Source of the DNA: Bacteroidetes bacterium 2013_40CM_41_45
Lineage (GTDB): Bacteria > Bacteroidota > Bacteroidia > AKYH767-A > 2013-40CM-41-45
NCBI GenBank assembly: GCA_002215675.1
Contig: NGFH01000009.1
Span: 124,001-188,000 of the forward strand
Direction of reading: 5' to 3'
Length of the DNA: 64,000 nt
Below are positions 36,459-36,889 of the stretch, piece after piece (the stretch's first letter is position 1; each line of letters begins with the position of its first letter). Under the pieces are notes generated by a model. The model saw only the letters and a list, made by a program, of their open reading frames with translations, did no database searches and was not told the origin of the DNA. The translations under genes were made by a program, and so were the position numbers.

Positions 36459-36532
36459 CGGGGTGTAGCGTAGCCTGGTAGCGCGTCAGCATGGGGTGCT
36501 GGAGGCCGTGGGTTCGAATCCCGCCACCCCGA
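36459..36532 (+). tRNA. tRNA-Pro (anticodon GGG)
   Basis: 74 nt. Acceptor stem CGGGGTG/CACCCCG, D-arm GCGTAGCCTGGTAGCGC, anticodon stem TCAGC/GCTGG with loop ATGGGGT (anticodon GGG at positions 34-36), T-arm GTGGG-TTCGAAT-CCCGC and discriminator A. CCA is not encoded. Its last 20 nt plus one following base are duplicated exactly at 36869-36889. Confidence 0.97.
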
Positions 36533-36533
36533 C
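36513..36533 (+). repeat. Direct repeat copy 1 (attL-like), within tRNA-Pro 3' end
   Basis: A 21-nt sequence starting in the T-loop (TTCGAATCCCGCC) and running one base past the discriminator. It is identical to 36869-36889. The pair brackets the GIY-YIG gene, as expected for the attachment site of an integrated element. Confidence 0.85.
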
Positions 36534-36549
36534 TCTTTCTCTACCGTGA

Positions 36550-36795
36550 ATGTATTTTGTTTACATTCTTTATTCAAAAAAATTTGATTCCTTTTACACA
36601 GGACAAACTAACAATTTGAACGAACGGTTAACGCGGCATAATGACAGGAGAGAAAAATCTACCGCGCGGTATGCCCCATGGATATTGGTGTGGAGTCGTG
36701 AGAAACCAAATCGTGTTGAAGCCATGGAGTTGGAAAGGAAACTTAAAAACCTATCAAGAAAAAGGCTTGAGCAATTTATACTTAAGTATTTCTGA
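36550..36795 (+). CDS. Small GIY-YIG nuclease (UPF0213-like)
   Basis: 81 residues, a stand-alone GIY-YIG domain with no extra DNA-binding module. The motif pair is divergent: VYIL at residues 4-7 stands for GIY, and YTG at 16-18 for YIG. The catalytic arginine is R26 in NLNERLTRH, and the metal-binding glutamate is probably E57 or E60 in EAMELERKLKN. The protein is expected to nick or cleave DNA. It starts 18 nt after tRNA-Pro, on the same strand, and is followed by two long hairpins and a perfect copy of the tRNA 3' end. It therefore looks like the single gene of a tRNA-targeted element rather than a host repair gene. Confidence 0.93.
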   Translation: MYFVYILYSKKFDSFYTGQTNNLNERLTRHNDRREKSTARYAPWILVWSREKPNRVEAMELERKLKNLSRKRLEQFILKYF

Positions 36796-36804
36796 GATCG
36801 TGGG

Positions 36805-36874
36805 TCGAGACGATCCTGACGATTCCGTCAGGATGTCTTCGATGCTGACTTGCAAAGCAACGTCAGCATTCGAA
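36805..36874. repeat. Two tandem long hairpins closing the GIY-YIG element
   Basis: Hairpin 1: TCGAGAC-g-ATCCTGACG (36805-36821), loop ATTC, CGTCAGGAT-GTCtTCGA (36826-36842). Hairpin 2: TTCGATGCTGAC (36838-36849), inner stem TTGC-AAA-GCAA, then GTCAGCATtCGAA (36862-36874). The 3' arm of hairpin 2 runs into the TTCGAA of the duplicated tRNA end. The stretch before hairpin 1 (CGTGGGTCGAG) resembles the tRNA T-arm. Confidence 0.8.
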
Positions 36875-36889
36875 TCCCGCCACCCCGAC
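36869..36889 (+). repeat. Direct repeat copy 2 (attR-like), duplicated tRNA-Pro 3' end
   Basis: Exact 21-nt copy of 36513-36533, with no tRNA body upstream of it. Copies start 356 bp apart, so the putative element is about 356 bp long. The stop codon of the minus-strand gene at 36894 begins just beyond it. Confidence 0.85.

Follow-up and report, generated by a model that had tools for sequence, protein, structure and literature searches.

Can a single small nuclease gene, lodged at the 3' end of a tRNA gene, be a mobile element in its own right? This question is raised by a tRNA-Pro locus of Bacteroidetes bacterium 2013_40CM_41_45, found in a window (the whole stretch of DNA that was analysed) of 64,000 nucleotides. 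We consider it probable that this locus belongs to a family of minimal, homing-like mobile elements that target tRNA genes and are common in Bacteroidota.

Anatomy of the tRNA-Pro locus

The locus is made of the following features.

36459..36533, + strand: intact tRNA-Pro(GGG) gene, left boundary and target (ARAGORN; Rfam RF00005 on L001, the locus studied here)
36513..36533, + strand: left copy of the 21-nt duplication, from the T-loop to one base beyond the discriminator
36550..36795, + strand: GIY-YIG nuclease gene, 81 aa, single-domain, UPF0213-like
36799..36809, + strand: copied 5' strand of the tRNA T-stem (CGTGGG-TCGAG; direct reading, and pairing with the tail in the RNA fold)
36808..36838, + strand: hairpin 1, stem ATCCTGACG/CGTCAGGAT, lengthened by GAC/GTC
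36839..36873, + strand: hairpin 2 (TCGATGCTGAC..GTCAGCATTCGA), whose 3' arm enters the second repeat copy
36869..36889, + strand: right copy of the 21-nt duplication

Repeat comparison bears out the exact duplication at 36513-36533 and 36869-36889 reported in the preliminary description: both copies read TTCGAATCCCGCCACCCCGAC and their spacing is 356 nt. The ORF call, Pfam, and folding also agree with its account of an 81-residue GIY-YIG gene and two long hairpins between the repeats, and hairpin 2 does overlap TTCGA of the second copy. The sequence before hairpin 1 had been said to resemble the T-arm, and CGTGGGTCGAG (36799-36809) indeed repeats the T-stem 5' strand. Reading through the right end, one meets this T-stem strand, then the two hairpins, TTCGAATCCC, and the tail. 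Since GTGGG at 36800-36804 pairs with CCCGC of the tail in the RNA fold, this end amounts to a second T-stem in which two hairpins occupy the place of the loop, and the remaining tRNA 3' end comes after it. The initial view of hairpins plus a tail was correct in that both are present, but together they form an incomplete copy of the tRNA in which hairpins stand in for one arm. The fold of this 91-nt end is very stable (z=-6.2 for DNA, -6.5 for RNA), and no shuffled sequence was equally stable. Hairpin 1 is akin to dispersed TCCTGAC..GTCAGGA hairpins.

Each boundary carries the tRNA 3' end as a direct repeat, as in tRNA-targeting integrative elements. There is no integrase gene between the repeats, where their 356-nt spacing accommodates the GIY-YIG gene alone, and the element has a size of about 360 bp with one gene.

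The protein matches the Pfam GIY-YIG profile (PF01541, E=1.1e-17) over residues 1-71. Its best matches among solved structures are UPF0213 proteins (PDB 1ZG2 and 1YWL) and, from these relatives and the Pfam match, it can be assigned to the GIY-YIG fold. The UPF0213 (YhbQ-YazA) proteins have the same domain and length class, and their solved members are annotated merely as hypothetical proteins. The active-site residues Y5, Y16, G18, R26, H30, E62, and K66 are conserved, the first six of them in 97-98% of 98 relatives, and the hallmark Tyr, Tyr-x-Gly, Arg, and Glu of the GIY-YIG superfamily are present. These residues predict nuclease activity. With 81 aa the protein corresponds to the catalytic domain alone and lacks a separate DNA-binding domain, which homing endonucleases usually possess. 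Omega values of 0.05-0.21 in diverged pairs reveal purifying selection which, together with the conserved active site, shows that the nuclease is maintained. Such selection, combined with the same arrangement at the same locus in all close relatives, had been proposed earlier as an argument against mobility; the selection was found, and it fits an active element and a host function alike. A group I intron homing enzyme was rejected as a candidate identity (NCBIfam TIGR01453 score of 22 for a cut-off of 56), as was a phage or plasmid origin (weak matches, 34-41% identity).

Recurrence at tRNA genes and two mirror layouts

With the 81-aa protein as query, a scan that took a single genome from each species yielded 57 loci, picked regardless of tRNAs. 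Among the Bacteroidota loci with adequate flanks, selected on protein similarity only, 32 of 36 have a tRNA on the same strand within 200 nt. This is the case for 2 of the 8 loci from other phyla, the other 6 being without a nearby tRNA. No tRNA was found on the opposite strand within 300 nt of the ORF in 140 ORF regions, some of which were counted twice. The search for insertions at other tRNA genes, suggested in the preliminary description, was successful: the 62 loci placed on the nuclease tree represent 15 isotypes.

We then compared the far side of the ORF with the neighboring tRNA in 55 clean cases. It matches its own tRNA exactly over at least 13 nt in 39 of them (2.4% for other isotypes) and over at least 16 nt in 32 (0.5% for other isotypes, none in shuffled regions). 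Hairpins with a perfect stem of 7 bp or more are found there in 44 of the 55 cases, versus 11% in dinucleotide shuffles. The tRNA-end repeat is far above chance: a chance repeat is ruled out because the arrangement recurs and because of the controls with non-cognate isotypes and shuffled sequences. Recurrence at 15 isotypes also rules out one old duplication in a single genome. In many families, the hairpin, the tRNA copy, and the nuclease ORF are found together in a fixed order, and one genome can hold several copies, each at a different tRNA. The source genome itself has four GIY-YIG matches. One copy (L004) lies between a tRNA-Ser and a hairpin with a tRNA-Ser tail, and another (L003) is upstream of a tRNA-Arg-like copy with D-loop and T-loop hairpins. 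There is no tRNA arrangement around the GIY-YIG gene of L002.

The elements fall into two mirror classes of layout. In the commoner one, the intact tRNA is followed by the ORF, a partial tRNA copy with hairpins, and the 3' tail. The break in the tRNA copy is in the T-loop (L001, L005, L006, L008, L011, L014, L062, L065) or in the anticodon arm (first unit of L009, L034, L047, L073, L074, L084). In the mirror class (L022, L023, L029, L035, L044, L083), the 5' part of the tRNA precedes a D-loop hairpin, the ORF, and the intact tRNA. A full tRNA-Phe copy with a hairpin in place of the D-arm is found in L054, and the usual state of the redundant copy is the substitution of a hairpin for one arm. 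Tandem units are present in L005, where the copies are near-identical, L020, L031, and G016/G023, and a single tRNA-Met in L009 bears a stack of two nuclease copies that are dissimilar.

The 3' ends of tRNA genes and ssrA are classical attachment sites, and the 3' duplication resembles an attL/attR pair. One might hence consider these loci as mini-islands, integrated in trans at tRNA 3' ends by a tyrosine recombinase of the host or a phage, with the GIY-YIG gene as cargo. They share with tRNA-targeting elements and islands an insertion at the 3' end of a tRNA, a gene that is made whole again, and the direct repeat. Yet, the islands of tyrosine recombinases differ from an element of about 360 bp that lacks an integrase and has breakpoints in the anticodon and D-arms as well. 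The mirror 5' class, the hairpins in the redundant copy, and a cargo that is nearly always from one nuclease family also contradict this explanation, which we regard as extremely unlikely.

Some observations concern copies that depart from these layouts. Tandem arrays of tRNA-Pro tails devoid of ORF, with units of 107 nt and ~81 nt, are present in L060:2294-3030 and in L123 and L124 (genome G013), and in these array copies a hairpin replaces the anticodon arm. At a contig end (L182, G016:C11:1-400), the double hairpin is tandemly amplified apart from the ORF in units of ~47 nt (ATCAAGAGGCATAGCTCTCGATGGCGAGCC...). Outside Bacteroidota, a Candidatus Dojkabacteria MAG (L048) carries a complete tRNA-Val element and a second unit in tandem, which suggests either a transfer beyond the phylum or a mis-binned contig.

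Filled sites, empty sites, and the source of the duplication

If the elements move, sites without them should exist in related genomes, and the preliminary description had called for a search of empty tRNA-Pro sites. The 8 homologous tRNA-Pro genes checked in relatives (L092-L096 and L098-L100) are all empty, each having just one tail and lacking a GIY-YIG gene in its vicinity; they are not syntenic with the studied locus, and the genes flanking tRNA-Pro are not conserved within the family of the source genome. Another genus provides syntenic sites. The locus of the tRNA-Ala element of Algoriphagus limi is conserved in many species, as revealed by a search of the genus, and it shows empty, remnant, and filled states together. 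Of 19 syntenic loci that we read, 6 have the ORF and 13 do not. Among the latter, L225 and L227 hold hairpin-bearing copies without ORF, and L237 and L241 appear clean. In the closest filled/empty pair (L051/G111), the flanks are 93% and 90% identical, and 47 nt spanning the tRNA tail and the terminator are present twice in the filled site and once in the empty one. The empty site of G111 has a hairpin-bearing tRNA fragment upstream, so that it may have lost an element instead of never having been filled. More generally, the syntenic presence and absence could reflect losses by recombination between the repeats, and not new insertions. In genus g14, two genomes keep a tRNA-Ser element as tandem units located at the ends of contigs, a third has a shortened remnant, and none offers a clean empty site.

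The preliminary description had also proposed that the element rebuilds the tRNA 3' end on insertion. The duplication fits this proposal; its origin seems to differ from what was assumed. Among 21 loci with exact duplications, 15 have a duplication that reaches at least 5 nt past the tRNA into the local flank, with a maximum of 59 nt, and related nucleases occupy different isotypes. Because of these two results, the 3' tail was most likely duplicated from the target and not brought by the element, and an element with a fixed tail of its own is disfavored.

The same results bear on a system acting at the level of RNA, in which the GIY-YIG protein would cut or bind the tRNA and the arm-swapped copy would be a decoy or guard RNA, akin to an RNA antitoxin. 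The ORF and the tRNA are always on one strand, as one would expect of such a system, and the copy retains a tRNA-like folding with one arm replaced. However, the duplication includes flanking sequence past the tRNA, and copies lacking the ORF persist at several tRNAs and in arrays. Furthermore, almost all GIY-YIG enzymes that have been studied act on DNA. This makes the RNA-level explanation very unlikely.

On the nuclease tree, which is based on ~80 columns and has many unresolved forks, the isotype changes at least 27 times among 62 loci (mean of 41.8 and minimum of 37 when shuffled). This comparison favors movement mostly between like tRNAs with repeated jumps to others. Since isotype partly tracks the nuclease tree, much of the inheritance may be vertical. 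This tracking, together with the purifying selection and a tRNA-Ser element that was kept vertically and decayed within one genus, would also be compatible with old tandem duplications of tRNA segments beside a nuclease domesticated by the host, e.g., for DNA repair, and immobile today. We find this quite improbable given the 27 or more isotype changes, the several copies at different tRNAs within one genome, the syntenic empty sites, and the near-identical tandem copies of L005.

Putative mechanism, known systems, and dispersed hairpins

The idea of a single-gene mobile element at a tRNA gene has thus been strengthened by the recurrence and the empty sites; the element is presumably mobile today. 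Its core would consist of one small GIY-YIG nuclease gene and a hairpin end. The nuclease would cut the tRNA gene in a loop, here the T-loop at GG/TTCGAATCC, and in relatives the anticodon or D-arm. A copy that bears the element would then serve in the repair, through recombination or template switching, and part of the tRNA would be duplicated, leaving one tRNA intact and a redundant copy that holds hairpins in one arm. The hairpin-armed copy is probably uncuttable, its recutting perhaps being blocked, and the hairpins may constitute the end of the element. As to how a bare catalytic domain finds its target, our guess would be the recognition of a hairpin or cruciform.

As expected for homing-type elements, the gene adjoins its target and there are element-free alleles, which are syntenic in one genus. 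The closest system we found is SegB of phage T6, a freestanding GIY-YIG homing endonuclease that is reported to cut inside tRNA genes, to have phage tRNAs of many isotypes as neighbors, and to be required for a tandem amplification that depends on recombination (PMC13096335). Its motif, RAWTSGAAC, is reported there as preferred and not strictly required (PMC13096335). Its reverse complement, GTTCSAWTY, is in our reading the universal T-arm, and the T-loop junctions of the element fall exactly there. The SegB-like enzymes of T-even phages and the element share the GIY-YIG domain, the adjacency to tRNAs of many isotypes, and the link to tandem amplification (PMC13096335). They differ in that SegB-like enzymes are carried by phages and comprise more than a bare catalytic domain, whereas the protein of the element has 81 aa, is chromosomal, and has weak relatives in phage records. 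Neither a hairpin-armed tRNA copy nor a duplication of the tRNA 3' end is described for SegB in the sections consulted (PMC13096335).

We found no description of bacterial GIY-YIG elements embedded in tRNAs, or of arm-swapped tRNA copies, in openly licensed PMC papers, and descriptions may exist elsewhere. The elements would be a variant of the homing type and stand a fair chance of forming a class of their own. A stronger proposal, to which we give about even odds, is that they form a new class of autonomous elements, among the smallest known (~360 bp and an 81-aa gene), lacking a transposase or integrase. A bare GIY-YIG domain would attack the loops of tRNA genes, the element would survive as its insertion leaves an intact tRNA and a cut-resistant arm-swapped copy, and it would mobilize in trans the hairpin-armed tRNA fragments devoid of ORF. 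If the homing-like model is right, a widespread class of Bacteroidota genes, labeled simply "GIY-YIG nuclease family protein", belongs to tiny selfish elements with tRNA genes as a safe harbor. The model would account for partial tRNA copies that bear hairpins and for some assembly breaks beside tRNAs, link the tRNA-cutting homing enzymes of phages to chromosomal elements, and point to a compact enzyme recognizing the most conserved part of tRNA genes. Involving one small protein and one universal target, the mechanism is directly testable.

A pattern search located dispersed hairpins in the source genome. The palindrome TGCTGAC-N-GTCAGCA is present 19 times, a modest number, versus 0 for the reversed-pattern control. 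Copies without ORF have the same hairpins directly before the T-loop in a partial tRNA-Arg (L122), a tRNA-Val (L143), and ssrA, where the relic is identified by its match to the end of the tmRNA gene (GAGGG/TTCAATTCCCTCCAGCTCCAC). Dispersed double hairpins are also found outside tRNAs. We rejected a right-end sequence common to the relatives, since GCTGACN..GTCAGCATTCGA was found in the source genome alone among 61 genomes (1/61). The sequence of the hairpin is hence lineage-specific, though its position is conserved. A nearly identical hairpin (CCCGCCCGAACGTA..CGTTCGGTACGGG) is present in the D-loop of a tRNA-Ala in a Flavobacteriaceae MAG (L022) and in that of the tRNA-Arg of L003 in the source genome.

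The hairpins outside tRNAs raise the possibility that they are REP-like repeats, moved into redundant tRNA copies by a RAYT or another transposase, the GIY-YIG gene being a passenger. REP/REPIN sequences and their RAYT (TnpA-REP) indeed resemble the element in the small nuclease, the paired and dispersed palindromic hairpins, and the non-autonomous copies, and the source genome has one match to a Y1 transposase (PF01797). However, RAYT is an HUH tyrosine (Y1) transposase whereas the element encodes a GIY-YIG nuclease only, and the hairpins of the element, unlike REP/REPIN, lie in the arms of duplicated tRNA copies. The surroundings of the Y1 gene lack TGCTGAC or GTCAGCA and have palindromes of their own (CCGTCAGC/GCTGACGG and CAGTTGGC/GCCAACTG), a difference that disfavors RAYT as the mobilizer. 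A passenger role would also leave unexplained the recurrence of hairpin, tRNA copy, and ORF in a fixed order. We therefore regard the REP-like explanation as unlikely and favor a homing-like element with its own nuclease. The Y1 (RAYT-like) match (L248, G000:C1:282186-282527) has one reported internal stop, and its 5' flank carries a different palindrome family.

A last observation concerns ssrA in the source genome (L247, G000:C5:44000-63000). The relic (G000:C5:44356) and the ssrA gene (G000:C5:62318-62688) are ~18 kb apart. The tmRNA gene and the hairpin-bearing copy of its T-arm and tail bracket a lanthipeptide-type cluster (LanB, LanC, and an ABC transporter with a C39 peptidase), along with acetyltransferase and two-component genes. 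No integrase was found in the 8 ORFs scanned in the bracketed region, which resembles an island with this same hairpin end as its boundary.
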